DNA of 48,322 bases from a virus, in the IMG/VR virus record IMGVR_UViG_3300040806_000846, positions 1 through 48,322 of that record. One strand, given 5' to 3'. The notes beneath the pieces were generated by a model. It did not search any database. It was not told where the DNA came from and worked only from the letters and a program-made list of their open reading frames with translations. The translations under genes and the position numbers were made by a program. Positions within the stretch are counted from its first letter, which is position 1. Each line of letters begins with the position of its first letter. This document shows positions 438-45,536 of this stretch, piece after piece.

Positions 438-635
438 TTATACTATGTTACTTGCTTGTGGTCCTTTCGCACCTTCAGTAACATCATATGTAACTGCTTG
501 ATCTTCTTGTAAAGACTTATATCCATCACCTGCTATTGCTGTATGATGTGCAAACACATCTTTACTGCCATCGTCTGGTGATATAAATCCAAATCCTTTA
601 CTTGAATCAAACCATTTTACTTTTCCTGTCGCCAT
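438..635 (-). CDS. cspA: Cold-shock protein, CspA family
   Basis: This 65-residue protein is a complete single cold-shock domain. It starts [18 protein letters not shown] and carries the RNP1 motif KGFGFI (residues 13-18) and the RNP2-type motif VFAHH (27-31), the aromatic RNA/ssDNA-binding surface of the family. Family members melt RNA secondary structure and act as antiterminators or RNA chaperones. It is slightly shorter than E. coli CspA (70 residues). It lies 1 base after the stop of a 30-residue coupled gene, so it is probably translated from the same polycistronic message. A role in phage RNA handling is inferred. Confidence 0.95.
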
Positions 636-2543: not shown

Positions 2544-4106
2544 TTAAAACTCAAAAAATGTATCCATTACTTCTTCGTTATCGCCATCATCTTCTCCAGC
2601 GAAACCTATATGTGTTAAGAACTCTCTATGGTCTGCTACCATACCTCTTGGATTTGGATTACTAGGATCAAATAGATCCTCTGCAAACTTTTGGAAGTAT
2701 AAAATATTAGCAGGAACATACGGAGATACTTCTTGTGCCTTACTGCTTTTCTTAGTAGGCTTTCTCCAGTTCTTGTAATCTAATGTTTCTCTATAACGTT
2801 CTACATCAGCAAGTCTGTTTGCTTCTTGTACTGCGTCAATGTGGTTGAACACACTGTGAGCCATGTAATACAAATAACTCTGTGTGTCCCAACTAGTGCT
2901 GTCTCTTTCTGCTATCATTGGATTGCCTTCAGCATCTAGTTTAGGCTTACCTTCTTTGTCTACTAAAGGTTGACCTTCAGATAGTTTTGCTTTACCATTT
3001 TTATCTAAGTCTCCAGCCTCCATAGGACATAAGTCACCCATTGTAAGTCTTTGCATTACTGGTGAATGTCCAAACGGTGCAGGCATTGTGCTGTTTTTAA
3101 ATGATTGTTGATCAAATGCTCTGTCCATGAAGTAACCAAACTTACCTGGCTCAAAGAAATTGTGTGCATAAGTTTGTCCGTATGCTGTATTCACAAATGG
3201 ACTAGCGGCATCAAAACTTAATGTAATGTTAGGATTGTCATATTTTCTTAACTGTCTTTGTATTGCTGTTAAGAAACATGCCCATTGTAGTTTACCTGTA
3301 CCTAGGAAGTGTATCCAATCTTTGCCTTCTAATAAACCATCTTCACGTAAGTCTAGCAGTCTGTTTAATACACAACTCATATCTTTCATATTGATACCAG
3401 CAAATGCATAGCCTTCTAGTGTTCTATTCTCATCACCATAAGCCTGTGCAACAAAACTTGGGTCACTAAAGTTCTTAACTTGATTGTACCATTCTTTACT
3501 TGTTGCTTCGTCTGTACCACTTAGTACATTTAAGAACTTAGTTGCACCTGGTACTCTGTTTTCCACAAAGTAGTGCAAGTTAAGTAAACTGATATCTAAT
3601 GTATCTTTAAACTCTGTTAGTCCTGTTTTACTGCTTAGTGGTTCAACTGCGGCAAAGGCTGGAATGTCTAATGTCATACTCCAGTCTGCTGTATGCTCTA
3701 ACCAACGTAATATCTTTTCACACATCTTTGTACGAGCAGGATCGTTAGGATCTTTTGCGTTGTCCCAATCCATTTTCATAACGCCTGTAGCAATTTGGAA
3801 ACCACCTGAGTCACCTAGTATTACTTTACATTCGTTTCTATCTCTTTCCTGTATCATTGGCTCGTCTTTATGACTTTTAGCAATGTCTAAGTGAGCATGA
3901 CCGGCTGAATATAATCCATATGGATAATGGAAGTATGTGTCTTTGGCTTTTAGAAAGTCTAAGCCTTCGTTACCATGTTCAAATCCTGCAGGTGTTCTAC
4001 TGTTTGCAGGGTCTTTGTTTAGAATCTTATCTACTTGCTTTACATAGAAACTGCTAATAGCCGGCAAATATACAGCATAGTCTAACTGTCTTTTACCTAA
4101 GTCCAT
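2544..4106 (-). CDS. TGT/DpdA-like transglycosylase with a putative clamp-binding tail
   Basis: A 520-residue protein with the TIM-barrel motifs of queuine tRNA-ribosyltransferase (TGT) and its DNA-acting relative DpdA. DSGGFQ is at residues 99-104, the HFLGTG segment at 266-271 matches the TGT YLMGVG position, and SFDAASPF carries D299, the likely catalytic Asp. The CxCxxC zinc site of bacterial TGT is not visible. A charged insertion near residues 365-400 carries repeated DK.GK.KL motifs. In many phages DpdA-type enzymes exchange guanine in DNA for 7-deazaguanine derivatives; tRNA as substrate is the alternative. The protein ends EVMDTFFEF, almost identical to the end of the polymerase encoded nearby. 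It lies in an operon with the sliding clamp. No preQ0-synthesis gene is in the window. Confidence 0.82.
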   Translation of the reverse strand: MDLGKRQLDYAVYLPAISSFYVKQVDKILNKDPANSRTPAGFEHGNEGLDFLKAKDTYFHYPYGLYSAGHAHLDIAKSHKDEPMIQERDRNECKVILGDSGGFQIATGVMKMDWDNAKDPNDPARTKMCEKILRWLEHTADWSMTLDIPAFAAVEPLSSKTGLTEFKDTLDISLLNLHYFVENRVPGATKFLNVLSGTDEATSKEWYNQVKNFSDPSFVAQAYGDENRTLEGYAFAGINMKDMSCVLNRLLDLREDGLLEGKDWIHFLGTGKLQWACFLTAIQRQLRKYDNPNITLSFDAASPFVNTAYGQTYAHNFFEPGKFGYFMDRAFDQQSFKNSTMPAPFGHSPVMQRLTMGDLCPMEAGDLDKNGKAKLSEGQPLVDKEGKPKLDAEGNPMIAERDSTSWDTQSYLYYMAHSVFNHIDAVQEANRLADVERYRETLDYKNWRKPTKKSSKAQEVSPYVPANILYFQKFAEDLFDPSNPNPRGMVADHREFLTHIGFAGEDDGDNEEVMDTFFEF

Positions 4107-4264
4107 TATGCACTCTCTTTAATAAAATCAAGGTCAGCATCTAACTGTTCTGTGTGTAGTGCAAACTCTAATGGTGTAGCAATGCCTTTGTCCATACATG
4201 CTTTGGCGAATTCGTGTAGTTGCTCTTGCGACATTCTACATAATATTTCTACTAAGTCGTTCAT
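4106..4264 (-). CDS. 52-residue protein between clamp and transglycosylase
   Basis: A short frame from the ATG at 4264 to the TAA at 4106-4108. It starts MNDLVEILCRMSQEQLHEF and ends DLDFIKESA; it is mostly helical and acidic. It begins 1 base after the clamp stop codon, and its own stop overlaps the transglycosylase start as TAATG, so the three genes are translationally linked. No family is recognised. The position suggests a small accessory factor of the replication/modification operon. Confidence 0.65.
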   Translation of the reverse strand: MNDLVEILCRMSQEQLHEFAKACMDKGIATPLEFALHTEQLDADLDFIKESA

Positions 4265-4265
4265 G

Positions 4266-5021
4266 CTATCTCCTTGCTGGAAGTAAATATGTGTAAATAC
4301 CTAAGCCACTATCTACCTTAATTTGTAGCAGTCCTTGGTTGTTGATACTCATTACTAAGTTACTGTTATCTCCTAATCTAAGAATCTTTAACACGATATC
4401 TAAAGGCCAACTCCAGTCATTAGTAATCTCACCATCGACATTGTCGTTGATTAGTACTTTAGTTCTGTCGCTACCGCCATCTCCAATGTGAAAATACAAT
4501 GCACTGCCTTCTGTTTTAGGACTGAAGTTACCCTCAAATGTTCCTAATATGCTGTTAAAATACCCTAAGTCTTTTAAATTCTTTGCAGTAGGTAAAATGT
4601 TTACATCAAACTCAGCACCTTTGAACTTAATATCTTTAAGTTGCTGATTGATTACATCTGCTAACATGAATCTATAATTAGCATCGGTACCTTCTGTGCT
4701 TTTGAATGCTACCTCTACTGGTACATCCTCATCGTTTCTGTTCTGTGTTTGTATTTCAACAGTAGCATCGTCACTGTCAAAGCCTGGAAACTTTAAGTAT
4801 CCATCTAACACACTCATTCTGCTTAGTCCAACAGTTGCTTCTGCAAAGTCGGGTACAGGGTTTACACTTTGTCCTTTAAGAATTACAGTTTTGTCTGCGT
4901 CAACAGTCTCTAACTCTGTAAGTTCAGTAGTGCCTTTAATTTTTACCATTTCAAACACACCAAGACTATGTGTATGTCTTAGTACATCTTTGAAATAATC
5001 TTTAATATAATTGTTCGCCAT
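4266..5021 (-). CDS. 45: Sliding clamp (T4 gp45 family)
   Basis: A 251-residue protein, close to T4 gp45 (228 residues). It has the alternating beta-strand pattern of a processivity clamp, for example KFPGFDSDDATVEIQT and a C-terminal strand LGIYTYLLPARR. Gp45 forms a trimeric ring on DNA that tethers the polymerase, and in T4 it also serves as activator of late transcription with gp33 and gp55. It has its own early promoter (5051-5079) and a CGGAG ribosome binding site. The operon continues into the TGT/DpdA-like gene. The clamp loader ATPase is encoded at 44607-45536. Confidence 0.85.
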   Translation of the reverse strand: MANNYIKDYFKDVLRHTHSLGVFEMVKIKGTTELTELETVDADKTVILKGQSVNPVPDFAEATVGLSRMSVLDGYLKFPGFDSDDATVEIQTQNRNDEDVPVEVAFKSTEGTDANYRFMLADVINQQLKDIKFKGAEFDVNILPTAKNLKDLGYFNSILGTFEGNFSPKTEGSALYFHIGDGGSDRTKVLINDNVDGEITNDWSWPLDIVLKILRLGDNSNLVMSINNQGLLQIKVDSGLGIYTYLLPARR

Positions 5022-5050
5022 TTATTTCTCCGTAGAATATTATTCTGTAT

Positions 5051-5079
5051 ATTGTAGTACACTTATTTAGAAAAGTCAA
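5051..5079 (-). promoter_or_regulatory. Sigma70-type promoter of the clamp operon
   Basis: TTGACT (5079-5074), a 17-base spacer and TACAAT (5056-5051) on the minus strand. The leader then carries CGGAG before the ATG at 5021. Confidence 0.8.
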
Positions 5080-5103
5080 GTAAATTCTCATGTTTTTTTT
5101 CGA

Positions 5104-7791
5104 TTAAAATTCAAAGAAATTATCCATAACCTCATTATCATTTGCTCTAGACAAGTCCCATCCAAGTACGCCTAACACGTTTTGTATCTTTTTATCTAGA
5201 ACTGCACTTTCCATACCTTCATCATCAAAAGGTAATTCTTTAAACCATTGTGGAATCTTTAGTTCGTCTGTTGGATATGCAATACTTGTATAACCCATAG
5301 GATTATTTTTAAGTCTGCATACTACAACTTTTGCACCATCCATAATGCTTAAACTGTATTGATCACTGTTAGCAAACTTAAGGTCATTCCATACTATACT
5401 TGCCTTAACATGCCCAGGAATCATTTTGTTCTCTGTTTCTTCTTTTAGTTTTTCTAATTTGTATAGATTTGTATTACTTTTCATATTAGTTTGCTTTCTA
5501 TACTTCTTGGTGTACATGGTTAAGTTGTTTACCCTTTTAGGCATACCTTTCTTCCATGGTTCTAATTCTTTAAATGTTACTTTGAAGTCTTTTATCTTTT
5601 GTATAACTTCTTTCTCTGGCATACCTTCTAATGCAGAGTCTAGTATCTCTTCAAGGAATTCCTGTACAAACTCAGGAGTATCACTTCGCTTGATATCCAT
5701 ACCCATAATTTTTAGTTTACCACCTTCTGGTTGATAGCCTTCAATGTCTAAACACTTGATAGCATATCTCTTCTTAGTAATAAACAGTCCACTCTTACCA
5801 ACTACTTCTCTACCTGCTTTGATAACACTACCAATCTTAAGTGGTACGTTAAAACTATCCTTCATAAACTGTGGGAATGTATCACTGACTGTATTTGAAA
5901 TGTGATCATACAATGTGATAGCACTTTGCATATCTAGGCTAACATCAGCCGGCAATGACGGAACAGCGGAGAAGTAAACAGAGTCTGTATCTCCGTAGAC
6001 GATAGTCTCTCCGGTATGATCATAGTCTCCTGTAAACATTCTATTTGTTTCTGCTCCCATGTGTTTTGTAATAGCACGACCTGTGAGTGTTGTTGATTGC
6101 CCAATACGTTTGTCGAAGAACCTACAACCAGGATTGAGAATAGCACCATACAAACTGTTAAGGTTGATCTTTTTAACAAGTTGTCGCTTGTCATAAAATG
6201 CTTTTTCTTCTTCTGTTGTAGCATTCTTTTTCTTTGCTTGTAGTTCTTGTCGTTCTGCATACCATCTCTCCAGTAGTCCAGGTACAATACCTTGTACATC
6301 TGTTTTAAATATAGTTCCGTTAGCACTTATGTTCCAAGGTTGACCACTGTGGAATACTAAATTGTATACATCAGCACCAGTAACATCTACACTAGTACCA
6401 TCTTCCATGTCTAGTTTCATAACAGTATCAACATCTTTAGCCATTACCATTTCATATTCATTGCTACCAAACTTGCCTAACCATGAATCAGCAAATGATA
6501 GTTTTTCTAACTTCTGTTTATTTTCTATTTCTTCGTCTGTGAATTCTGGTCTAAGTTGTCCAACAATGGTTTCTGGAGCCATATTCAATGCTCTAAACAC
6601 ACTAGGATATAGACTGTTTATGTCCATTGAACCTATCCATTCATGCATACCTTTCTTAGGGAAAGCCACATAAGCACCAGCGGCCTGTGTGTTTTCTGCT
6701 TTGCTTCTAATTCTATCTGGAACACAGAATCCACGTAGATGTGCTTCGTTGATAATTGCTTGTTCTGTAGTTGCAACTGCTCCCATTGTAGTTGGAAGTA
6801 ATACAGTATTATCATGTGCAATAGTGTTTGCTAAGTCAATGAACTGTAATTTCTTATCCATCTTAGCAATCAACAATACGTCTTGAATATTGTATTCTAA
6901 GAAACGTTCAAAGTCATGATTGTATAGTCTATCTAAACTACCTTCATAAACAACCTTCTTCTCACCGAGTTCCATCTCACCAATAAAGTCTAATCTATAA
7001 CTATGGCGTTCTTCATAGTTGTATTTTCTATACAGTTGCAAATAGTCTAAGTGAACTCTCCCAATGAGATCATAACTTTGTCGTTCACTGCCAAACATTT
7101 CATACTTACGCTCTTTAGGAAACTGTCCAAACAAACACAAACGTCTTGTTTCGCTTTTACCTAATATCTTAATAATCCTATTAGTAGTATAAGGTATGTC
7201 ATAACCTTCACTGTTCCAACCACTTAGTATGTCTGCATCATCTATGAGTGTAAGGAACGTATTAAGCATTTCTGCTTCATCTTTAAATAACATTACTTCA
7301 GGCATACCATTAGCAATGTTTTGTGCTTGTTGCCAGTCTAATGTTTTAGGTGGTACTGCTAAACATACCATAGCATCCATCCAATCTAAGTATACACCTA
7401 TTGCAGTAATAGGCATAAATGCATCTTCAGGCGAACTAAATCCTTTTACAGGATCAAAGTCAACCTCGATGTCAAAAAATGCTGTATGTAGTTTAGGTAT
7501 CTCTGCGTTGAGATAATTCTTTTCTAGTGTTTTATTGATAGGGCGGACGTCTGTTTCAAACATCTTTCCGCTTTTCTTATTGATTGCTACGTTCTTTCTA
7601 AAGTCCTTTAGAGATTTACAACGTACTTCAGTTACAGGATCGCCATAGACACTTCTTGCTTTACCACGTGGGTCAGCATAATAAAAATTGTATTCAGGTT
7701 GTAGAGTGACAATATGTCTCTTACCATCTACTCTTTCGGATACGAGGATCTTGTCCTTCGTGGTGTCATGAAACGCATCAACGTAACTCAT
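5104..7791 (-). CDS. 43: Family B DNA polymerase (T4 gp43 family)
   Basis: An 895-residue replicative polymerase, matching T4 gp43 (898 residues). Exonuclease motif I reads FFDIEVDFD (around residues 105-113). The polymerase motifs are MDINSLYPS (about 389-397), KKINLNSLYGA in the fingers region, and YGDTDSVYF (about 597-605) with the two metal-binding aspartates. Both 3'-5' proofreading and polymerisation should therefore be active. The C-terminus ends EVMDNFFEF, analogous to the clamp-binding tail of RB69 gp43. The gene is uninterrupted by introns or inteins. It lies between dsbA and the clamp operon, about 58 bases after dsbA, with no clear promoter of its own. Confidence 0.97.
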   Translation of the reverse strand: MSYVDAFHDTTKDKILVSERVDGKRHIVTLQPEYNFYYADPRGKARSVYGDPVTEVRCKSLKDFRKNVAINKKSGKMFETDVRPINKTLEKNYLNAEIPKLHTAFFDIEVDFDPVKGFSSPEDAFMPITAIGVYLDWMDAMVCLAVPPKTLDWQQAQNIANGMPEVMLFKDEAEMLNTFLTLIDDADILSGWNSEGYDIPYTTNRIIKILGKSETRRLCLFGQFPKERKYEMFGSERQSYDLIGRVHLDYLQLYRKYNYEERHSYRLDFIGEMELGEKKVVYEGSLDRLYNHDFERFLEYNIQDVLLIAKMDKKLQFIDLANTIAHDNTVLLPTTMGAVATTEQAIINEAHLRGFCVPDRIRSKAENTQAAGAYVAFPKKGMHEWIGSMDINSLYPSVFRALNMAPETIVGQLRPEFTDEEIENKQKLEKLSFADSWLGKFGSNEYEMVMAKDVDTVMKLDMEDGTSVDVTGADVYNLVFHSGQPWNISANGTIFKTDVQGIVPGLLERWYAERQELQAKKKNATTEEEKAFYDKRQLVKKINLNSLYGAILNPGCRFFDKRIGQSTTLTGRAITKHMGAETNRMFTGDYDHTGETIVYGDTDSVYFSAVPSLPADVSLDMQSAITLYDHISNTVSDTFPQFMKDSFNVPLKIGSVIKAGREVVGKSGLFITKKRYAIKCLDIEGYQPEGGKLKIMGMDIKRSDTPEFVQEFLEEILDSALEGMPEKEVIQKIKDFKVTFKELEPWKKGMPKRVNNLTMYTKKYRKQTNMKSNTNLYKLEKLKEETENKMIPGHVKASIVWNDLKFANSDQYSLSIMDGAKVVVCRLKNNPMGYTSIAYPTDELKIPQWFKELPFDDEGMESAVLDKKIQNVLGVLGWDLSRANDNEVMDNFFEF

Positions 7792-17106: not shown

Positions 17107-17629
17107 TTACAATATCCTTTACTGCTTCACGTATGTCCATGTGTCTATAATTAGGAAGTTCATTTATGTAATTATATATTCGTTTTGGTTGTTGCTTAGG
17201 ATCAGCATCTTTAAGTTCTTCAAGAGTTATATCAATACCCTTGTTATATTCTTTTAGTTCAAGAATAATAGTATCTATGCTGTTTAGATATTCATTTACT
17301 TCTATGATTTTATCTACATTATTTACAACAATGTCTACTGGTTCTGTTTCCCAATCTTCTACTATGTCAATTTCTTGTTCACTTGCAATTAAATCTAGTA
17401 TATGATCTATTCTATCTCTAGTCAAATAATACGCAATGTTGTTTGATATGTTTTCTATTGCCCAAGTCTTATTATGTGGTAGTTTAACTTTAACAATACA
17501 ATTACTATCTACAGCATGTATATTTTCATACATATTCTTTTCTATATTATGTTTTTCTGCTAGTTTTTCTGTAGCATATGAAGAACCACATCGGTATGCT
17601 GATAATACAATTATATTAGTACTGTTCAA
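17099..17629 (-). CDS. Sulfotransferase-like P-loop protein (tentative)
   Basis: A 176-residue protein with a TTG start at 17629, supported by GAAGG upstream and because no ATG precedes the conserved N-terminus. NIIVLSAYRCGSSYATEKLAEK (about residues 5-25) resembles the PAPS-binding strand-loop-helix of sulfotransferases (usually PRSGSS/T). A later NIAYYLTRDRIDHILDLI fits the second region (LxRDxxxxxxS). The protein is shorter than typical sulfotransferases (about 250+), so it may be minimal or have lost activity. The gene overlaps the amidinotransferase gene by 14 bases. Confidence 0.5.
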   Translation of the reverse strand: MNSTNIIVLSAYRCGSSYATEKLAEKHNIEKNMYENIHAVDSNCIVKVKLPHNKTWAIENISNNIAYYLTRDRIDHILDLIASEQEIDIVEDWETEPVDIVVNNVDKIIEVNEYLNSIDTIILELKEYNKGIDITLEELKDADPKQQPKRIYNYINELPNYRHMDIREAVKDIVNV

Positions 17630-18683
17630 GTTTGCCTTCTCTGACTAAGTCTTGGCTCACACAATGTGGACCACCTGCTAGAGTTCTCATATGGCGCATT
17701 TGGACAGGAACTGGTGTTATGCCATTCTGTTCCATTGCTTTCATTAGTGGTATCTCATCACTTGGTACTAATACATGCTGTGGATCTATGCTGAGTACGT
17801 TCATACCAATCCAACTACTTGCTGGAGCATAATCTTCTAAACATGGTTGCCCTACACACATTTCTTCTGTGTACCAAATCTTATCCCAATCTTTGTATAT
17901 AGCAGGCACCTTATCTTTATCAACCCTACTAGCATTTAAAACTACTAGTCCAGGTCTCAGTGGCATAATGGTACTGTCGACATGTGCCCAACTGTATAAG
18001 TCATGCATCATGTGTACCTTAAAGTCGGGGCCTAGTGCGTTCTGTAACCACTTAGCACCCATTTCATTACCAGTATTGGATATAAGATATAGTATATCGT
18101 AACCCATGCGTATGAGGTTAGCAGGGTCTAATATAGGCTCATTGTTGTTTACACTTGGGTCTCTGCCTGGTTGTATTTTAAATAAATCATCTTGTAAACG
18201 TGGCTTAGGCATCTGTAACCAATTAGCACCACCCATCATCTTCTCTTGGAATAGGTCTCTGAATAGAAAGGTTTCATGATACCTTGCTCTCAAACTCATA
18301 GCACCTTCTATGATTTTGTCACCTATCACAGTAACACTATCACGTGGGCAGTATGCTTCGTATTGGTCTGTGTCCCATAAGCCGTTGCTAACGTTTGCTG
18401 TAAAGTCTACAGCATTTAGGTTAGGCCTATGTACCTTTACACCGAAATCGTTGCTTAGAACGTTGCACAATGCGTCTAAATCCTCTTCTGCTTCATGATA
18501 TACATGCTCTGGGTATCTACCCTTAGGCATTTGTGCATACTGTTCAGCACTTAGATTAGCATAGTTGGTTGCATGGTGCGAAAGGTCGCCGTTTGGAATA
18601 TTGGCGTCTACGGCCGTTCCTATAATTACTTCTTTGAGAGTGTCCCATTCATTACAGGACCATAGATTAGTATTTGGTTTCAT
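17616..18683 (-). CDS. Glycine amidinotransferase (AGAT/GATM) family protein
   Basis: A 355-residue protein aligned by eye with human GATM over its catalytic half. EPILDPANLIRMG contains D186 (GATM CFDAADFIRAG), WAHVDSTIMPLRPG contains H234 and D236 (GATM HIDATFNIIGPG), and AGGPHC contains nucleophile C341 (GATM GGGFHC). All catalytic residues are present. The family transfers an amidino group from arginine to glycine or to amino-sugars. The ATG at 18683 is preferred over the preceding TTG. Neighbours are an SDR, a sulfotransferase-like protein and a Bfd-like ferredoxin. The acceptor in the infected cell is unknown. Confidence 0.88.
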   Translation of the reverse strand: MKPNTNLWSCNEWDTLKEVIIGTAVDANIPNGDLSHHATNYANLSAEQYAQMPKGRYPEHVYHEAEEDLDALCNVLSNDFGVKVHRPNLNAVDFTANVSNGLWDTDQYEAYCPRDSVTVIGDKIIEGAMSLRARYHETFLFRDLFQEKMMGGANWLQMPKPRLQDDLFKIQPGRDPSVNNNEPILDPANLIRMGYDILYLISNTGNEMGAKWLQNALGPDFKVHMMHDLYSWAHVDSTIMPLRPGLVVLNASRVDKDKVPAIYKDWDKIWYTEEMCVGQPCLEDYAPASSWIGMNVLSIDPQHVLVPSDEIPLMKAMEQNGITPVPVQMRHMRTLAGGPHCVSQDLVREGKLEQY

Positions 18684-18957
18684 CAACGATATTTACCGAA
18701 TGGATTGCAGGTGCTGGTTCCGAAACTGGCTCGCAGTACTGCTGGGCATTCATAATATCGCTTGAACTTTCTAGATACAAAATCCAACCTTGTAAGTGTT
18801 TAACTACACAAAAAGATCCTGTTGCGTTATCTTCTAACCATTCAACAAGTGAATATTGATCTGTGTAATATTTGTTAGAAATCATGTTGACCATTTTTTC
18901 TGTGCCTTTTAACAACACAAATTCATCTTCAGTAAGTCTATTAAATTTTTTAATCAT
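18667..18957 (-). CDS. Small soluble protein, unknown
   Basis: The ATG at 18957 overlaps the SDR stop codon (ATGA), so I prefer it to the TTG two codons earlier; GGAG lies about 10 bases upstream. The 96-residue product starts MIKKFNRLTEDEFVLLKG and includes SFCVVKHLQGWILYLE, a mixed alpha/beta pattern. It overlaps the amidinotransferase start by 17 bases. No family recognised. Confidence 0.65.
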   Translation of the reverse strand: MIKKFNRLTEDEFVLLKGTEKMVNMISNKYYTDQYSLVEWLEDNATGSFCVVKHLQGWILYLESSSDIMNAQQYCEPVSEPAPAIHSVNIVDETKY

Positions 18958-19748
18958 TTCCAATGCTCCGTTGTTTTAGTTACACCACCGTCAGAAGTAA
19001 TAGTTTCTCCAACAGTAAATGCACCTGCTCTCGAACATAAAAATATTACAAGACCAGATATGTCTTCAAGTGTACCAATCCTACCTCTTGGATTGGCTTC
19101 TTCGACCATGCTATAATTAAATCCTATTGCTGGTCCAAGTAAATCACTTGGGTATGGTCCTGGTGCAATAGCATTTACTAAAATGTTTTCTTTAACAAGT
19201 CTACCTGCAAGACTTCTTGTTAAATGATGTACTGCGGCTTTAGATGTACTGTATGCGTATGTATCGTTTCCTGGATTTACTAGTCCAGCAACTGACCCAA
19301 TGTTTACAACTCTCGATGGGTCACTTGATGTTGCATTTGTTGTTAGTAACTTTTTAAACTTTTGTGTTAAAAAGAATACACTCTTAACATTAAGATCTAA
19401 TACTTTATCCCAATTAGATTCTGAGAAAGAATCAAAGTCTTCGCCGTTTGCCAAGCCGGCATTGTTTACTAGAATGTCTATACCATTCTCTCTAGCACAT
19501 ACTTCTTTGTACAATACATCTATCCCATCCTGTGTGCTTAAATCACATGGAATAGCATAAACATCTGCATTGTATTTTTCTAACAGTTCGCTTTGTGTTT
19601 TTTGTAGGGTTGAGCCATGTCTAGCAGTAATGTATACCTTAGCACCATTCATTGCTAAACCAGTTGCAATCATTCTACCAATGCCTTTAGAGCCACCAGT
19701 AACAACTGCAACCTTTCCTTCTACACTAAACAATTCATTTATGTTCAT
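18954..19748 (-). CDS. Short-chain dehydrogenase/reductase, classical
   Basis: A 264-residue classical SDR. TGGSKGIG is at residues 17-24, NNAG at 95-98, catalytic Ser at 152 in NIGSVAG, and Y166/K170 in YSTSK. The C-terminal ITSDGGVT motif is also typical (FabG/gluconate 5-dehydrogenase-like). The ATG at 19748 overlaps the upstream 49-residue frame (ATGA); a TTG 24 bases earlier is less likely. It is upstream of the amidinotransferase in the same operon, so a shared small-molecule or glycan pathway is plausible. Confidence 0.88.
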   Translation of the reverse strand: MNINELFSVEGKVAVVTGGSKGIGRMIATGLAMNGAKVYITARHGSTLQKTQSELLEKYNADVYAIPCDLSTQDGIDVLYKEVCARENGIDILVNNAGLANGEDFDSFSESNWDKVLDLNVKSVFFLTQKFKKLLTTNATSSDPSRVVNIGSVAGLVNPGNDTYAYSTSKAAVHHLTRSLAGRLVKENILVNAIAPGPYPSDLLGPAIGFNYSMVEEANPRGRIGTLEDISGLVIFLCSRAGAFTVGETITSDGGVTKTTEHWK

Positions 19749-19894
19749 ATGTGATATAAAATCCAATTGCAAATAATTAAGAATGCAACAAAGCCTATAC
19801 AGATAATTGCAAACTTAAATATGTATTCTAAAATTGTAGGCATAAATCTAAAAAATAGATACGCCAATGCAATAAAACCAATTACTTCTAACAT
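19745..19894 (-). CDS. 49-residue hydrophobic membrane peptide
   Basis: A frame from the ATG at 19894 to the TGA at 19745-19747. It begins MLEVIGFIALAYLFFRF and ends IICNWILYHI, almost entirely hydrophobic with two possible membrane segments. Its start overlaps the stop of the VWA gene as TAATG and its stop overlaps the SDR start as ATGA. Coupling on both sides supports a real gene. Function unknown. Confidence 0.6.
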   Translation of the reverse strand: MLEVIGFIALAYLFFRFMPTILEYIFKFAIICIGFVAFLIICNWILYHI

Positions 19895-21219
19895 TACTTC
19901 TCTCTTTCGTATGGTACAGTTATACCGAAAGGTGCTACTGGTTTCTCACCACCATAACCTCCGCCGTGTACAATAAACAAAGTGTCACAGTATGATTCAT
20001 CGCCCCAACTGGACCATGGATAACCATCTGTGAACATAATAAACTTCTTAGGTTGGATACCATTTTCTTTCATGTAATCCCAACATACATCAAACTCAGT
20101 TCCACCACCGCCCATAACTTCGTAGTCCATAAACTCATCCATATTATTAGCAGTAAACTCTTGTGGATTATGTACTTCGGTGTCAAAACAGAACAAGTGT
20201 ATTTTAAAATCTGTGTACTGATCCATACAACCTTTTATTTCACTGAGAATATCTCGGCTCATATCATCTGTCATAGAACCTGATGTGTCCATAGCAATAG
20301 CAACATCAATTGTTTGCTCACGATCTAAGCCTGGCATCCAAATACCCTCACCAATACCTTTACGTGAAGGAGTATTAAAGTTGTAATCACTTCTGATTAC
20401 ACTTTGAATTTGTTGTGGTAATATTTCTCTCCAACTAAGTTGAGGATTTACTAGATCGTTTACAAGTCGTTTAACACCACTTGGCAAGTTACCAGCACCG
20501 GCACTCTTTGCCGCTTGGATAGTTGCGTTCTTAAATGCTTCTTTTATAGCACGTTTTTCATCAGCAGTATATTTTGCTGGACCTTTACCTTTGCCTTCTG
20601 CGTTACCTTCTTGACCATTGGCATTAGTACCTGCACCCTCATCATCACCATCTTCCATATCTAAGTGTACATCAAGTGTAGATACATTTATAACACGACC
20701 TTCTTCTTCAGCCTGTTGGAATAATTCTGCGTACACTTCTTCTGAAGTATAACCACGATATTTGTAATCATGACATATTTCAACAAGTGTAATCTTCTCA
20801 CCAACGTTACCTTCAATAAGGTCTCCGTTTACAATGTAGTCATTTGCAATGTTCCACAGCATAGGATCACGTTCACCTCGTCTACCAAAGTGATCGTATA
20901 CACAATGCTCTACCTCATGACCCCAAAGGAATACAAGGTTGCCCATTGACAATGCAGAAACAAAATCTCTGTTATAGTAAAAATATTTGCCATCAGTTGC
21001 GGCAGTTGGGCACCAGTCAGTTGCGTCTTTCATCTCTAGACGACAAGCCAAGTTACCATAGAAAGGACAATTAAGAAGCATGGAAATCCTAGCAGAAATC
21101 AATCTATCTTCAATTTCTTTCTTGCTAAGAGTAGTTTCTGGAATAGTATCCAAAGCCTTATGAGCAGTTGCTTTAGGGTCGCTACTGATCTTTGGTTGTT
21201 TTACTTCTAGTGTGTCCAT
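19894..21219 (-). CDS. VWA-domain putative metallopeptidase (partner of MoxR ATPase)
   Basis: A 441-residue two-domain protein. The N-terminal region has a zinc-peptidase-like HEVEH motif at residues 101-105 followed by NIANDY. An acidic Gly/Asn-rich linker (about 186-215) leads to a C-terminal VWA-like domain with the MIDAS motif DTSGSM at 311-316, GGGGTEFD for the MIDAS Thr, and FTDGYP. This matches the family with a putative metallopeptidase plus a VWA-like domain. Such VWA proteins commonly work with MoxR-type AAA+ ATPases, and one is encoded at 22705-23799. Promoter at 21244-21271 and a GTAGGAG ribosome binding site. Heads a six- or seven-gene operon. Confidence 0.85.
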   Translation of the reverse strand: MDTLEVKQPKISSDPKATAHKALDTIPETTLSKKEIEDRLISARISMLLNCPFYGNLACRLEMKDATDWCPTAATDGKYFYYNRDFVSALSMGNLVFLWGHEVEHCVYDHFGRRGERDPMLWNIANDYIVNGDLIEGNVGEKITLVEICHDYKYRGYTSEEVYAELFQQAEEEGRVINVSTLDVHLDMEDGDDEGAGTNANGQEGNAEGKGKGPAKYTADEKRAIKEAFKNATIQAAKSAGAGNLPSGVKRLVNDLVNPQLSWREILPQQIQSVIRSDYNFNTPSRKGIGEGIWMPGLDREQTIDVAIAMDTSGSMTDDMSRDILSEIKGCMDQYTDFKIHLFCFDTEVHNPQEFTANNMDEFMDYEVMGGGGTEFDVCWDYMKENGIQPKKFIMFTDGYPWSSWGDESYCDTLFIVHGGGYGGEKPVAPFGITVPYEREK

Positions 21220-21243
21220 CTATTTCTCCTACCTAATGTATAT

Positions 21244-21271
21244 ATTATACTTATTACAGCGACAAAGTCAA
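21244..21271 (-). promoter_or_regulatory. Sigma70-type early promoter of the VWA/amidinotransferase operon
   Basis: TTGACT (21271-21266), 16-base spacer, TATAAT (21249-21244) on the minus strand, with GG before the -35 box. Confidence 0.85.
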
Positions 21272-21278
21272 CCAAAAG

Positions 21279-21806
21279 TTAAGCGGCTTGATCCGCCTCC
21301 TGAACTTCTTTTTTCAGTTGAGCATCTTTTTGATCAAACCAACCATTGGCAGTCTTATACTGACACTTATAGTCTGACCTACCCTGCTCAGGTAAAGGAA
21401 TCCACTGCTCAGCCTTGCCAATGATAGCACGGTTCCAGTGGCTATATTCAGGATTGGGAGTGTGATGGGTACGACATAACCAACGGTCCATCTTCCAATA
21501 AAACTCTATTGGGCATTCCCATGGTTCGCAAATAGGACCTTTGCCGTCGCCATTTTTACCAAGGTCACGTATCTCCCAATCCAGGATATATTCTTCAGAA
21601 GCCTCATTTGAGTATTCAATCAATTTGGTTAAGGTAGGGATACCGTCTTGAGCAATCTTGTTGATCTGCCCGGGAGTTAAGTCCGTTACAAAATAAGTAC
21701 TACCACCCTTGTACTTCCAATGAGCCTCACTTACACCATGCTCATAACCATCATCATGAGCGGCATAGTTCTCTCTGTACTGGGTTTGTATTACTAATGT
21801 TTGCAT
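21279..21806 (-). CDS. Conserved phage protein between MoxR and VWA genes
   Basis: A 175-residue soluble protein. The start (MQTLVIQTQYRENYAAHDDG) with WKYKGGSTYFV resembles a conserved domain I recall from many phage and bacterial hypotheticals (TQxxENY...WKFKGGS). The C-terminus is helical and charged. It has its own promoter (21841-21869) and a GTAGGAG site. It sits between the AAA+ ATPase and its presumed VWA partner, so it could be an adaptor, but nothing shows this directly. Confidence 0.75.
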   Translation of the reverse strand: MQTLVIQTQYRENYAAHDDGYEHGVSEAHWKYKGGSTYFVTDLTPGQINKIAQDGIPTLTKLIEYSNEASEEYILDWEIRDLGKNGDGKGPICEPWECPIEFYWKMDRWLCRTHHTPNPEYSHWNRAIIGKAEQWIPLPEQGRSDYKCQYKTANGWFDQKDAQLKKEVQEADQAA

Positions 21807-21840
21807 AAAATCTCCTACCTTTTTATTAAACTATGTACAT

Positions 21841-21869
21841 AGTATACTAAATTTGGTGGGTTTGGTCAA
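21841..21869 (-). promoter_or_regulatory. Sigma70-type early promoter
   Basis: TTGACC (21869-21864), 17-base spacer, TATACT (21846-21841) on the minus strand; AGG precedes the -35 box and a TGTACATA follows the -10 box. Confidence 0.82.
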
Positions 21870-21907
21870 CCTTTTTTCCACTTTTTCTGGTAAAAAGTTG
21901 GTGTTTT

Positions 21908-21915
21908 TATAAATA
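21908..21915 (+). promoter_or_regulatory. T4 late promoter consensus TATAAATA, leaderless arrangement
   Basis: Exact TATAAATA on the plus strand with 5 bases before the ATG at 21921. In T4 the box spans about -13 to -6, so +1 would be the A of the ATG. No ribosome binding site is present. Confidence 0.8.
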
Positions 21916-21920
21916 TTTGC

Positions 21921-22607
21921 ATGAAATTAGTGGTTTGTGGGGATAGTTTTGCTAGTTTAAATGCACATTGGCCTGCAGAATCGCAGTGGCCTATGATAAT
22001 GGGTGAAGTATTAGGTTGTGAGGCTGTAACACTAGGCAGAGGTGCTGGGTGTAATATGTATATCCATGCTCAAGTAAAGTATGCTATAGAGGAGTTACAT
22101 GCTACACACATCATGGTTTGGGCCACTAGTCCTAATAGATACATGTTTCCAGATACCACAATTGAAGAAACAGAATTTGCGGCAAACACTATTGAATCTC
22201 ATATAAACACAGATGAATCAAACTATGTTTATGAGAATTACATACCAAAATATCTCAGCCATCATGCTGTAGAGCATCACATAGATCTAAGATCAGACAG
22301 ACACAAATCTGCATATGATAATTTTTTACTATATCTAACAGACGAGCAATTAGATTTAAGTCGCAGTAAAATGATAATAGGTGACATAGCAAGAATGTGT
22401 GATTACCATAAAGTAAAAACTTTAATAAATTTATCAAATATGGATCATTGGAAAACTACCGAATGGCTAGAAATATCAAATGAATATGTTCAACCTTTAT
22501 ACACAATAGATGTAGATATGGGACCAGGACATGATCATAGTCCTAACCACATTGATCTAAATTGTCATCGTACTCTAGGTGAATACCTAGCCAACCTATA
22601 CAAATAA
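21921..22607 (+). CDS. SGNH/GDSL-type hydrolase-like late protein
   Basis: A 228-residue protein starting MKLVVCGDSFASLN, with the block I GDSF (nucleophile S9). Near the C-terminus SPNHIDLNCHRTLGEYL provides the Asp and His expected in block V of SGNH hydrolases. Family members cleave esters on lipids or glycans. A lone gene on the plus strand, it follows a perfect late promoter and ends just before the terminator of the opposing moxR gene. Late timing suggests a virion-associated or surface-modifying enzyme. Substrate unknown. Confidence 0.75.
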   Translation: MKLVVCGDSFASLNAHWPAESQWPMIMGEVLGCEAVTLGRGAGCNMYIHAQVKYAIEELHATHIMVWATSPNRYMFPDTTIEETEFAANTIESHINTDESNYVYENYIPKYLSHHAVEHHIDLRSDRHKSAYDNFLLYLTDEQLDLSRSKMIIGDIARMCDYHKVKTLINLSNMDHWKTTEWLEISNEYVQPLYTIDVDMGPGHDHSPNHIDLNCHRTLGEYLANLYK

Positions 22608-22612
22608 AATCC

Positions 22613-22640
22613 AAAAAAAACCCCTCTCCGAAGAGAGGGG
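22613..22640 (-). terminator. Rho-independent terminator of the moxR transcript
   Basis: An 8 bp stem (CCCCTCTC with GAGAGGGG) closes a UUCG-type tetraloop on the minus strand and is followed by eight Ts in the minus direction. Confidence 0.92.
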
Positions 22641-22704
22641 GAAACCTGTTACTGATAGGTTGTAGGAGTAACGATGTAGGACAGTAACAGATTTAAACTT
22701 ATAA

Positions 22705-23799
22705 TTATTTCCCTGGGAATAAGTACTTCCAGTAACGATCTTTAAACTCTTTCTTGCCTTGTAGTTTACGAGGCTTAATGTCAATGTCATGATCGCTTAG
22801 TACTGTTTTAGCACTAAAGATTACTAACTCAGGCTCAAAGTTTGCCATGATAAAGTCAAAGAAATAATCAACACCTTTATCAAAGTCTTTCTCATCACCT
22901 TTGTTATATAACTCTGCTAGTTCATAGCATAGTCCAATAGCGAATGAATACTGAGCAGACTTTTCTTTGATCTCTAACTTCTTAACGTTACCATTAAGTA
23001 CATCTTCTGGGTTAGGTAGTTTAGAAGCATACTTCCTATGCTCACAAAACTTAATAGCCATACCCTCACCAATAGCACCGGCAATTTCTGCCTTCTGCTC
23101 ATAGTCTGAAGCAGTATCAAAGCCTTCAGTGTTAAGGATTTCACTTACAAAACTCCAAGAACGAGGAGTAGCAAATGCCTGTGAACTTGTCTTAGGATCA
23201 AAGTCAAACAAATCTGCCTTTGCATAAGTCAAGTAACCAATTACATCATGGTGTACTTTGTGATCCGTTGCCCAAATACTCCAGTCTTCAAAGTTCACAT
23301 CCATATTGATATGGCGGAATCTGTTTGCAAGGGGGGAAGGCATACGGAATGTAACACCTCTGTCAGTTTCTTTGTTACCTGCGGCAACAATTACTACATT
23401 GCTAGGCAATGAATACTGACCAATTTTGTTGTTGAGAACTAACTGATAAGCCGCCGCCTGTACTGAAGGAGGTGCTGAGTTAAGTTCGTCCATAAACAAT
23501 ACAATAGTATCGTATTGTGAAGCAAGGTGCTCAGTTGGCAAGTCTGCCGCTGGTGCCCACTCCATAGTGTTTGTTTCTGGATTCCTAAAAGGATATCCTC
23601 GCAAATCAGTTGGCTCCATAAGAGCAAGACGCATATCAATCATGTATGCGTTACCTAACTCACCCGAGTCAACAATCTGCTGAATAAGATCTGATTTACC
23701 AATGCCCGGAGAACCCCATAAAAATATAGGACGTTTAGCCTTCATTGCACGAAGTACAATCGGCTTAGTCTCGGACGGTCTTACTTGTAAAGTTTCCAT
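22705..23799 (-). CDS. MoxR-like AAA+ ATPase
   Basis: A 364-residue AAA+ ATPase. Walker A GSPGIGKS is at residues 29-36, Walker B LFMDELN at 101-107, a sensor-I-type AAGN follows (VIVAAGNKETDRG), and an arginine-rich ANRFRH segment supplies the likely Arg finger. MoxR ATPases partner with VWA proteins as chaperone-like machines (RavA-ViaA, NorQ-NorD). The VWA metallopeptidase two genes downstream is the natural partner. It has its own promoter (23843-23871), a GTAGGAG site and a strong terminator, so it can be made independently of the VWA gene. Confidence 0.9.
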   Translation of the reverse strand: METLQVRPSETKPIVLRAMKAKRPIFLWGSPGIGKSDLIQQIVDSGELGNAYMIDMRLALMEPTDLRGYPFRNPETNTMEWAPAADLPTEHLASQYDTIVLFMDELNSAPPSVQAAAYQLVLNNKIGQYSLPSNVVIVAAGNKETDRGVTFRMPSPLANRFRHINMDVNFEDWSIWATDHKVHHDVIGYLTYAKADLFDFDPKTSSQAFATPRSWSFVSEILNTEGFDTASDYEQKAEIAGAIGEGMAIKFCEHRKYASKLPNPEDVLNGNVKKLEIKEKSAQYSFAIGLCYELAELYNKGDEKDFDKGVDYFFDFIMANFEPELVIFSAKTVLSDHDIDIKPRKLQGKKEFKDRYWKYLFPGK

Positions 23800-41755: not shown

Positions 41756-42302
41756 GTTTAGTTGCTACACAAATATAATATTCTGGTAGCAAGTCATCAT
41801 AATCATCAAATGCAAAGTGTGGATCAATACCTTCATTAGTCTGTATATATTTTGCAACCGGACATTTTAAATCTATAACTGCATCTTTAATGCTTTTTAC
41901 ATTATAATCAACCGTGATTAGTTTACCTTTATCATTTAGTGCATTATATAAATTAGCAAAGCCTTTATTTAATCTTGTTTGATATACGTCAGCAGGCATA
42001 CTAGGAACAAAGTTAGGCAAACTGCAATACATCACATCAAAAAACTTTTCTTCTAAATCATATGTACTTAACACATTGTATTCTATTAAGTTTTCACAGT
42101 CATTGTAATTATTTCTATCTGCTTGGAATATGGTTTGATTCCAGTCTTCAATAACATGTACTTCTCTTACTTTATCTTTCAAGTATTTGTATAGTGAACC
42201 ATCACCTCTACCAAACTCTGCTAGACCAACTTTTGCGTCTTTGTTATTAGTTAGTAGTTCAAGTAAAATATCTTCGTAGTTATCAAGTATGTTGTTCGAC
42301 AT
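41748..42302 (-). CDS. SAM-dependent methyltransferase-like protein
   Basis: The ATG at 42302 (MSNNILDNYEDILLELLTNN) lies inside the end of the upstream gene with AGAGAG nearby; a TTG start 54 bases earlier is less likely. The 184-residue product has a Rossmann-like motif I (KVGLAEFGRGDGSLYKYL), an acidic end of strand 2 (VHVIEDW) and a strand 4 segment (FFDVMYCSLPNFV), consistent with a class I methyltransferase. The typical NPP/DPPY motif is not seen, so substrate class is unclear. Confidence 0.6.
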   Translation of the reverse strand: MSNNILDNYEDILLELLTNNKDAKVGLAEFGRGDGSLYKYLKDKVREVHVIEDWNQTIFQADRNNYNDCENLIEYNVLSTYDLEEKFFDVMYCSLPNFVPSMPADVYQTRLNKGFANLYNALNDKGKLITVDYNVKSIKDAVIDLKCPVAKYIQTNEGIDPHFAFDDYDDLLPEYYICVATKHD

Positions 42303-43344
42303 AGTCTTTTGCTCTCTGTAATGTTGTTTCAAAAATCCATCTAAAGTCGTCTGCATCTAGTTCCACAGGATGACTGTTATAGTTTGCATTTGCTATTGCT
42401 GTTTCTACAAATAGATCACTATGCTTAGGCAAGTATCTTTGATATAGTTCCCAATCCTCAATGTAAAATTCAAATATTTCTAATAGTTTTACGGTGTCTA
42501 TGTGTCTGTATGCATCGTTACGTTTACGCAAACTTGCTTCTATAATAGCAGGAGCAAACAGACAATTTAGTTCACCATGTTTTAATCCTGTTCTAGGACC
42601 TATACTAAAACTTACATTATGAATATGTCCTAATGCACAATCCATTGCTTTACTACCCAGGAAGCCTACTTTAGCAAATGTTTCTCTGAGTTCAGCAGTA
42701 ACTTCAGTTGTGGGTAAATGTTCCATTGCAAGTTTAATGCCATGCAAACCGGCACCTTCCGCAATAGGGTGTTCAATTGTACTAGCCGCACCTTCTAAAC
42801 AGTGTGTAAGGGCGTCTACGGCTATTATAAGGCCCGTTCTATCGGGTAGTGTATCAGTTAGTGTACCGTCTAATATGAGTACATCAGGTCTACACTTTTC
42901 ATCATACACTGGCTTTTTGTTACCTGGTCCTCTGACAATCATAAGTCCTTTAGTTATTTCAGCACCACTGTATGTTGTAGGTACTGCTATAAAGAATGGC
43001 CTTACACCTGCTAAACTATTAAATATAATTCCTTTACCTAAGTCAACAATACTGCCTCCTCCCATAGCAAACACACAATCAGCATCACTGTGAGCAAACT
43101 CTTTGTATGCTTCTAGTATTTGATCGTTAGTTGGTTCTGTTAGATCACCGTATTGCTCACCCCACATAGTAACTGTATAACCAGCATTTTCTAATATTGA
43201 CTGTATACCACGTTCTCTGGCGGCAGGTGTACTTACAACAAATACATGTTCTAATTCATAATAGTGTCTTAGGTCTTTAATATGTTTATTAAGACCATCC
43301 ATTTCTAGTATGACATCTATGTTTTGTTCGTAAAATCTTGACAT
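42283..43344 (-). CDS. Iron-type (group III) alcohol dehydrogenase
   Basis: A 353-residue enzyme of the Fe-ADH/glycerol-dehydrogenase-like superfamily. The NAD-binding GGGSIVDLGKG (about 95-105) is followed by the metal-binding D177 and H181 in DALTHCLE, and further candidate His ligands in LGHIHN (about 239-243) and LKHGELN (256). All expected ligands appear present. It reduces or oxidises a carbonyl or alcohol. Similar enzymes occur in surface polysaccharide and phosphonate pathways. It is linked to the methyltransferase-like gene by a 20-base overlap. Confidence 0.88.
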   Translation of the reverse strand: MSRFYEQNIDVILEMDGLNKHIKDLRHYYELEHVFVVSTPAARERGIQSILENAGYTVTMWGEQYGDLTEPTNDQILEAYKEFAHSDADCVFAMGGGSIVDLGKGIIFNSLAGVRPFFIAVPTTYSGAEITKGLMIVRGPGNKKPVYDEKCRPDVLILDGTLTDTLPDRTGLIIAVDALTHCLEGAASTIEHPIAEGAGLHGIKLAMEHLPTTEVTAELRETFAKVGFLGSKAMDCALGHIHNVSFSIGPRTGLKHGELNCLFAPAIIEASLRKRNDAYRHIDTVKLLEIFEFYIEDWELYQRYLPKHSDLFVETAIANANYNSHPVELDADDFRWIFETTLQRAKDYVEQHT

Positions 43345-44363: not shown

Positions 44364-44614
44364 TAGTAAACCTTTATTATTCTATAATCAAATGGCTCAA
44401 CAGTTCTGATTTCAAAGAACTTGTTTTGCATGTCTTTACCAACTATATGTGTAGGGGTCTTCTTACTAATTGCTTTGAGTTTGTAATGCTTAGGAACACG
44501 TTTGATAGTTTTAACACCATCTTCTTGTATCATTGTTTCAGAATGAAACCATACGGTTAGGTCGTATTCTTCATATATTAGTGTGTACCACCATTTTTTA
44601 ATTTCTTTAAGCAT
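44363..44614 (-). CDS. Conserved small phage protein downstream of clamp loader
   Basis: The ATG at 44614 (MLKEIKKWWYTLIYEEYDLT) lies inside the last codons of gp44; a TTG start one codon earlier is possible. The 83-residue protein is beta-rich and basic, with VWFHSETMIQEDGVKTIKRV and a C-terminus EPFDYRIIKVY. By recall it resembles a short conserved protein of T4-like cyanophages. Function unknown; it is linked to the clamp-loader operon. Confidence 0.7.
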   Translation of the reverse strand: MLKEIKKWWYTLIYEEYDLTVWFHSETMIQEDGVKTIKRVPKHYKLKAISKKTPTHIVGKDMQNKFFEIRTVEPFDYRIIKVY

Positions 44615-45536
44615 CAATACTATTTAGTTGAAGTGCAACTAAAGTAGCAGATAAGTTGATTTCTGGATCTGCTACAGTAACACTTTTACTAATACCGTCC
44701 CTAATAATTAAGATTGCTTGATCTTGTTGTTGTTCTGTGCTACCCCAAAGTTCTAAGTTTCTGTACATAAATTTGTATATGTCATCATACTCTTCGGGTC
44801 TTGCTTGGCTAACAATCAAATTCCTGGCTTCTTTATACTTGCTGGCTTTAAACAGATCTACTGCTGATAGCATCCAGTCACTACTAGATTGGTCACCTTC
44901 TTGTGGCTTTTGTAAAACATTATCGATTACATTTTGTTGTACTAAGTTTATGCATTTACGCAAATCAGGATATGTAGCCTGGCTATAAGAATCTAATGTA
45001 TCTAAATCTATTTGTACACCTTCTTCAATACAGATAGTTGCTATCCTGGCAATAAACTCTTTGATGTCTAGTTTCTCAATATGAAAGCCTTGACATCTGC
45101 TGTGCAATGCAGGAATAATACGTTGCGGGTAGTTACAAGTTAGTATGAATCTACAACTAGTGTGATATGTTTCCATCACACCACGAAGTGCCGCTTGACC
45201 ATTAGGCGTAATATAATCAGCCTCATCCAGCAATACATACTTCATGTCTCCAAATGGCATTGTGCTACTGAAGTTTGTGATCTTACTCCTGATAGTATCA
45301 ACACTATTTTCATTACTAGCATTTATTTCTAGTATGTCCATGCTGTCAATATCTAATTCAGAGAGAAGAACCTTTGCTAAAGTAGTCTTACCTGTGCCAG
45401 GTGCTCCACTGAAAAGTAAATGTGGTAATGCCCCTTCTTGGACCCAACCACTAACTTGCCCACGTTGTTTATCATCGCGGAATACATAGTCACCGATGTT
45501 ATTCGGCCTGTACTTTTCTACCCATAATTCTTTCAT
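44607..45536 (-). CDS. 44: Clamp loader ATPase (T4 gp44 family)
   Basis: A 309-residue AAA+ clamp loader large subunit (T4 gp44 has 319). N-terminal LWVEKYRP is the clamp-loader signature, Walker A GAPGTGKT is at 44-51, Walker B LLDEAD at 102-107, and the SRC motif (HSRCQGF) at 146-148 supplies the trans Arg finger. It opens the gp45 ring and loads it on primer-template DNA. It is 40 kb from the clamp gene in this window, unlike the contiguous 45-44-62 order of T4, and no gp62 is recognised nearby. Confidence 0.95.
   Translation of the reverse strand: MKELWVEKYRPNNIGDYVFRDDKQRGQVSGWVQEGALPHLLFSGAPGTGKTTLAKVLLSELDIDSMDILEINASNENSVDTIRSKITNFSSTMPFGDMKYVLLDEADYITPNGQAALRGVMETYHTSCRFILTCNYPQRIIPALHSRCQGFHIEKLDIKEFIARIATICIEEGVQIDLDTLDSYSQATYPDLRKCINLVQQNVIDNVLQKPQEGDQSSSDWMLSAVDLFKASKYKEARNLIVSQARPEEYDDIYKFMYRNLELWGSTEQQQDQAILIIRDGISKSVTVADPEINLSATLVALQLNSIDA

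Follow-up and report, generated by a model that had tools for sequence, protein, structure and literature searches.

The stretch of DNA analysed in this work, referred to as the window (48,322 nucleotides, positions 1 to 48,322 of the IMG/VR virus record IMGVR_UViG_3300040806_000846), carries on its minus strand, in this order, the genes of a family-B DNA polymerase of 895 amino acids related to RB69/T4 gp43 (5104–7791), a sliding clamp of 251 amino acids with a predicted PCNA fold (4266–5021), and a transglycosylase of 520 amino acids (2544–4106), assigned to the DpdA type and to the tRNA-guanine transglycosylase (TGT) fold from its AlphaFold2 (AF2) model, Foldseek comparison and motifs. A first-pass annotation had placed this enzyme two genes downstream of the clamp; it is actually the next gene, after a gap at 4107–4265. 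The subject of this work is a C-terminal tail common to the enzyme and the polymerase. The TGT-like open reading frame (ORF) ends ...GEDDGDNEEVMDTFFEF and the polymerase ends ...SRANDNEVMDNFFEF, exactly as the first-pass annotation had stated; compared over their last residues (EEVMDTFFEF in the enzyme vs. NEVMDNFFEF in the polymerase), 8 of the 9 terminal positions are identical. The enzyme tail, EVMDTFFEF, occupies residues 512–520 at the very C-terminus (2547–2573, minus strand), where it is predicted to bind the clamp, and follows a variable acidic linker (residues 503–511; 2574–2600, minus strand). The polymerase tail, EVMDNFFEF, recognised by a polymerase-tail profile, lies at 5107–5133 (minus strand).

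This profile was trained on polymerase tails only and run on the last 70 residues of each ORF. Among the 94 ORFs of the window it ranked the enzyme first (16.1 bits) and the polymerase second (16.0 bits), the next ORF reaching 8.7 bits, and the same two proteins again took ranks 1 and 2 among the 520 ORFs of the complete genome of Pseudomonas phage PA5oct. Over all the loci collected, scores of at least 8 bits were obtained for 66% of 105 distinct enzyme C-termini vs. 1.4% of 3,077 other ORFs; as controls, none of 97 clamps and 4.7% of shuffled enzyme tails reached this value. The separation of enzymes from other ORFs (Mann-Whitney p 2e-49) is indicative only, because the rows are related. The match of the tail exceeds chance. 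In further contigs of the window's clade, a terminal FF[DEK][FL]-type tail was present only on the enzyme and the polymerase, and no convincing second family of clamp clients was found in the collected loci, where the top-scoring other ORFs were scattered. Within the same clade the FFEF codons displayed a proportion of synonymous differences (pS) of 0.83 and a proportion of nonsynonymous differences (pN) of 0.02, with a pN of 0.29 in the preceding linker; these codons are under strong purifying selection.

The tail is conserved among relatives, a box of the form hydrophobic-x-x-[LF]-F-[DESG] being located after the core in about 70 of 74 non-redundant homologues. The box forms the C-terminus in the window's clade, whereas in other homologues it lies internally, roughly 25–40 residues from the end and at the same place after the core. 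Among close relatives (77–92% identity), the C-termini of the enzyme read FFEF, FFDF, FFEGF or LFNL, and those of the polymerase FFEF, FFDF, FFEL or FFKF. Internal boxes of distant relatives include TFGSLFET, FNSLFDV (in PA5oct) and NTFGSLFSF, the last of which appears on enzyme and polymerase alike in locus L165; similar pairs, with the enzyme given first, are NNNDLFGW and NNTDLFDW in Vibrio phage 2.275.O, and SNDFF and DSDFF in locus L063. An alignment of the very end of the sister clade (EDIMRADFDGE) with FFEF was tried and dropped, as it is the TFGSLFET box, 28 residues from the terminus, that aligns with FFEF. Judging from the aligned proteins, the box is an old feature of the enzyme family, and the window's clade ends right after it. 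Homologues that keep the tail in phages lacking a clamp did not come to light: where the contig covered the region, box-bearing homologues had a PCNA-type clamp gene nearby.

The subtype of the box also tended to follow the polymerase of the same phage, with an FF-type enzyme in 14 of the 15 phages having an FF-type polymerase vs. 2 of the 59 others (74 non-redundant phages; boxes labelled automatically, 14 labels corrected by eye), although this matching is suggestive only, because the tree leaves four independent pairs. The close identity of both tails in the window phage, at 8 of 9 residues, could be explained by a recent copy of the tail from the polymerase gene through recombination, but enzyme and polymerase tails of one phage use different synonymous codons, which indicates that the shared tail is not a recent DNA copy, and relatives with as little as about 43% identity have an internal box at this place. 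A recent transfer from the polymerase gene was rejected on these grounds and is barely conceivable. Thus, from the earlier explanation of the shared tail by convergent or transferred clamp binding, the clamp-binding motif gained support and the recent transfer was discarded.

When the enzyme was modelled alone by AF2 (mean predicted local distance difference test score, pLDDT, of 87.7; predicted template modelling score, pTM, of 0.88), residues 504–520 all presented pLDDT values below 50, of around 30 in the tail. As a substitute for docking of the peptide on the clamp trimer, a clamp-linker-enzyme fusion was modelled, consisting of the in-frame read-through translation with stops read as Gly. 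In the fusion model only residues 503–511 of the enzyme tail remained below 50, whereas residues 512–520, which are exactly EVMDTFFEF, reached pLDDT values of at least 50 (mean of about 72 for the last five) and formed a short helix and a bridge. This gain of order with the clamp in cis would be the expected, if indirect, appearance of a docked peptide of the type of the PCNA-interacting protein (PIP) box. The tail might instead bind another partner or the enzyme itself through a dimer contact, its likeness to the polymerase being due to convergence on an aromatic-acidic motif; mimicry of short motifs arises readily, TGTs are active as dimers according to work cited in PMC6884629, and the gain of order of the tail was read from pLDDT values. 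Such a partner is improbable, as the tail is disordered in a confident model of the enzyme alone and gains order with the clamp, its subtype tracks the polymerase in distant lineages, and few other ORFs match. Since the tail is conserved, disordered, similar to the tail of its own polymerase in many lineages and modelled more confidently with the clamp, sequences and models point with high confidence to a sliding-clamp-binding motif.

The clamp of the window gave no match to PDB sequences and, besides PHROG 12062, no informative sequence match; the negative result with PDB sequences made a comparison of folds necessary. In the Foldseek search made with the clamp-enzyme fusion model, the listed matches for the clamp were all PCNA (best E 1.9e-10, prob 1.00, TMt 0.72). 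No sequence relation of this clamp to T4 gp45 was detected by hhalign (E 0.088, probability 0.7%). An RFC-type clamp-loader subunit similar to gp44 is encoded further along the window (44607–45536, minus strand; phmmer with T4 gp44, E 5e-26).

Searches of the enzyme against Pfam, NCBIfam, PHROGs and PDB sequences yielded nothing usable, and no member of its family had a relevant match to the TGT models of Pfam or NCBIfam; as a result, the identification rests on motifs and fold. In the Foldseek comparison of the enzyme model with the PDB, the top three matches were tRNA-guanine transglycosylases (best E 7e-4, prob 1.00), with a moderate TM-score (TMq 0.40). In an alignment of 31 diverse homologues (30–92% identity), D99, S100, G101, G102 and Q104 were invariant, corresponding to DSGG[FY]Q, a motif characteristic of the active sites of TGT and DpdA enzymes (DSGGFQ in the window, residues 99–104; 3795–3812, minus strand). 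S297, D299 and S302 were invariant as well, within a motif S[FYC]D[ASC][AS]S that is invariant or nearly so (SFDAAS in the window, residues 297–302; 3201–3218, minus strand), and Asp299 is the probable nucleophile; the candidates for conserved catalytic Asp, namely D99, D147 and D299, are all invariant. The SFDAAS motif aligned weakly with the D[SA]S motifs of the DpdA of phage 9g and of the DpdA2 of the T4-like Vibrio phage nt-1. The canonical CxCxxC...H zinc site was not visible, C360 being the only invariant Cys in the alignment.

Genes for deazaguanine synthesis were linked to the enzyme family in relatives: folE and queE are located downstream of the enzyme homologue in the contigs of seven of them, folE, queD and queE are present in PA5oct, and queF, yhhQ, queC and folE lie beside the homologue of Vibrio phage 2.275.O. 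The pathway was shown in relatives only because the window contig stops before that region. The TGT/DpdA-like identity proposed by the first-pass annotation was thus borne out as regards the fold and agrees with the linkage in relatives. An enzyme that modifies tRNA, or a decoy, with an incidental link to the clamp, would also have a TGT fold, and phages might boost queuosine in tRNA (PMC6884629). This possibility is very improbable considering that the enzyme has no Pfam TGT match and no visible zinc site of the usual kind, that its gene adjoins the clamp gene, that phage DpdA families modify DNA (PMC6884629), and that PA5oct was listed by Iyer and colleagues as having a system for deazaguanine synthesis and incorporation (PMC7824862). 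The enzyme is very probably a DNA-modifying DpdA-type enzyme.

The attachment of a DNA-modifying enzyme to the PCNA ring by a short motif, the PIP box, has a precedent in DNMT1, which differs from the enzyme of the window in being a eukaryotic cytosine methyltransferase. Compared with the PIP-box consensus (PMC11139829), the FF-type boxes agree in the hydrophobic-x-x-aromatic-aromatic half, whereas the Gln of the PIP box is replaced by Glu in the window motif. In T4, gp45 is bound by the C-termini of gp43, gp55 and gp33, which can replace one another as clamp-binding epitopes (PMC2988020). The tails of T4 and RB69 share the pattern hydrophobic-x-x-[LM]-[FY]-[GDE] (SLDFLFG in T4 gp43, SLDFLYEAND in gp55, SLFDMFDF in RB69 gp43), but the carriers in T4 are the polymerase and transcription factors, in contrast with the base-exchange enzyme of the window, and the clamp of the window has a PCNA fold with no detectable sequence relation to gp45. 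A functional parallel is the T4 alpha-glucosyltransferase, a phage DNA-modifying enzyme on a sliding clamp, whose binding to gp45 (Sommer 2004) was confirmed by pull-down (PMC13216743). It is, however, an unrelated glucosyltransferase acting on hydroxymethylcytosine, which decorates the base and does not exchange it, and its C-terminus (...FKEQFDIITK) displays no obvious box. Given the binding of this enzyme to gp45, the general idea of clamp-bound modification of phage DNA has a precedent; what is novel here is that it extends to enzymes that exchange bases and apparently recurs with two types of clamp.

The second type of clamp is that of phage 9g, where polymerase, clamp, DpdA, folE, queD, gat-queC and queE are close together. 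The DpdA of 9g inserts deazaguanine into DNA and, together with those of CAjan and the DpdA2 of nt-1, belongs with the phage TGT-like enzymes tied to 7-deazaguanine in phage DNA (PMC6884629). As in the window, the gene of 9g DpdA is adjacent to that of its clamp, and the protein ends in a clamp-type motif. Among the 68 distinct C-termini of 9g-family DpdA, a final [LF][FY] followed by no more than one residue is present in 64, and Q-x(1-3)-[LF][FY] is located close to the terminus in 53; the corresponding counts among the 1,544 other ORFs in these loci were 13 and 1. IQELF, DQIGLF and DQMGLF are typical endings (L188:3007-3960; L196-L275) and fit, or nearly fit, the beta-clamp motif Q-aliphatic-x-[LM]-[FL] (PMC11139829); the DpdA terminates in AQVSLF in Dinoroseobacter phage R5C and in RQRRLF in Streptococcus phage Dp-1. 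In nearly all loci of the 9g family, a homologue of the 9g clamp gene, a type assigned from record annotation, was found nearby. The pairing of motifs and clamps would be that of the gp43/PIP-like box with PCNA-type clamps and of the Q-x-x-[LF]F C-terminus with 9g-type clamps.

Profile comparison by hhalign of 9g DpdA and of nt-1 DpdA2 with the window family was not significant; a weak local match between the window family and nt-1 DpdA2 appeared at H-x-LG-x-G and SYDSS (hmmsearch E 0.003, single target). As no significant sequence relation was seen between the families, there appear to be two lineages, each with a motif that matches its own type of clamp. It is probable that clamp tethering is general for several phage deazaguanine transglycosylases, from at least two lineages with no detectable relation in sequence and each with the motif of its own clamp, and that base exchange in them is coupled to replication. 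A limited literature search retrieved no description of the beta-clamp-type ending of 9g-family DpdA and no paper linking DpdA with a clamp. Regarding the window family itself, KIVEGLF is the C-terminus of the homologue in Sinorhizobium phage Phosso (L100:9989-11638), which lies close to a DnaE-like polymerase; this ending may represent a switch to the beta-type motif.

In the mechanism that we propose, the TGT-fold enzyme would exchange guanine in phage DNA for a 7-deazaguanine base, and its flexible C-terminal box ([hydrophobic]-x-x-[LF]-F-[DE]) would plug into the ligand pocket of the clamp expected for the polymerase tail. Tethered in this way, the enzyme would stay on newly replicated double-stranded DNA and modify it behind the fork. 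We infer the physical binding, the DNA substrate, the identity of the base and the coupling, and consider the proposal as a whole quite probable; taken separately, the coupling of the enzyme to replication is moderately likely. The first-pass annotation had also suggested a coupling with late transcription. The gp55-like protein of PA5oct (70756-71625) has no clamp box, the tail was not encountered on any late-transcription factor, and this additional coupling is scarcely credible. The same two observations speak against another explanation, in which the box binds the clamp in a role not coupled to replication, as a general DNA anchor or allosteric activator, for instance on parked clamps or at late promoters. 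This role is possible, if doubtful: T4 gp45 acts in late transcription in addition to replication (PMC2988020), and the binding of gp45 by T4 alpha-glucosyltransferase is not the main determinant of the share of glucosylation in vivo (PMC13216743).

The last observation also weighs against tethering behind the fork as we propose it, and so do several others. The gain of order of the tail comes from one fusion model with a read-through linker and a pTM of 0.62, other models being lower, and the tree-aware subtype test comprises four independent pairs, 4/4 concordant (p 0.125). The box is weak or lacking in loci L042, L112 and L177 and appears as MW variants in L037, L040 and L041, and the DpdAs of mycobacteriophages, Arthrobacter and Cellulophaga examined have no visible clamp motif. 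In addition, 9g DpdA needs no phage clamp to modify plasmids in E. coli (PMC6884629), so that tethering may raise efficiency and not be essential. Levels of modified G were about 0.1% in nt-1, whose DpdA2 (L285:9913-11307) has no visible clamp box, and about 27–32% in 9g and CAjan, but mycobacteriophage Rosebush reaches 28% (PMC6884629), even though the mycobacteriophage DpdAs examined show no box. These levels indicated that there is no simple rule between box and modification.

If clamp tethering holds true, it would account in a simple way for how DpdA-type enzymes find DNA and avoid tRNA, and for the stage of replication at which bases are exchanged: the enzyme would act on fresh duplex behind the fork, ahead of host nucleases. 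The box would also offer a short experimental handle, through tail deletion or swapping, and a sequence rule to spot further clamp clients in phages with uncharacterised modification systems.

Other genes of these loci deserve mention. The minus-strand ORF at 1825–2352 of the window encodes a protein of 175 residues without Pfam or PHROG match, an apparent homologue of which flanks the enzyme on the corresponding side in contig G013 (60058–60573). The polymerase gene of PA5oct (L099:5605-10831) is split by a Hef-like homing endonuclease gene, and the N-terminal part of the split polymerase ends in an intein-like sequence. Elsewhere in the window, the protein encoded at 17616–18686 (minus strand) weakly matches arginine deiminase/amidinotransferase (Pfam ADI, E 2e-5), and a short-chain dehydrogenase is encoded close to it (18954–19772). 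A VWA-like metallopeptidase (DUF2201) is encoded at 19894–23799 (minus strand), with a MoxR-like AAA ATPase nearby. An iron-containing alcohol dehydrogenase-like protein (42283–43344, minus strand; E 9e-18) constitutes unusual phage cargo, and a cold-shock domain protein is encoded at 438–635 (minus strand; E 3e-28).

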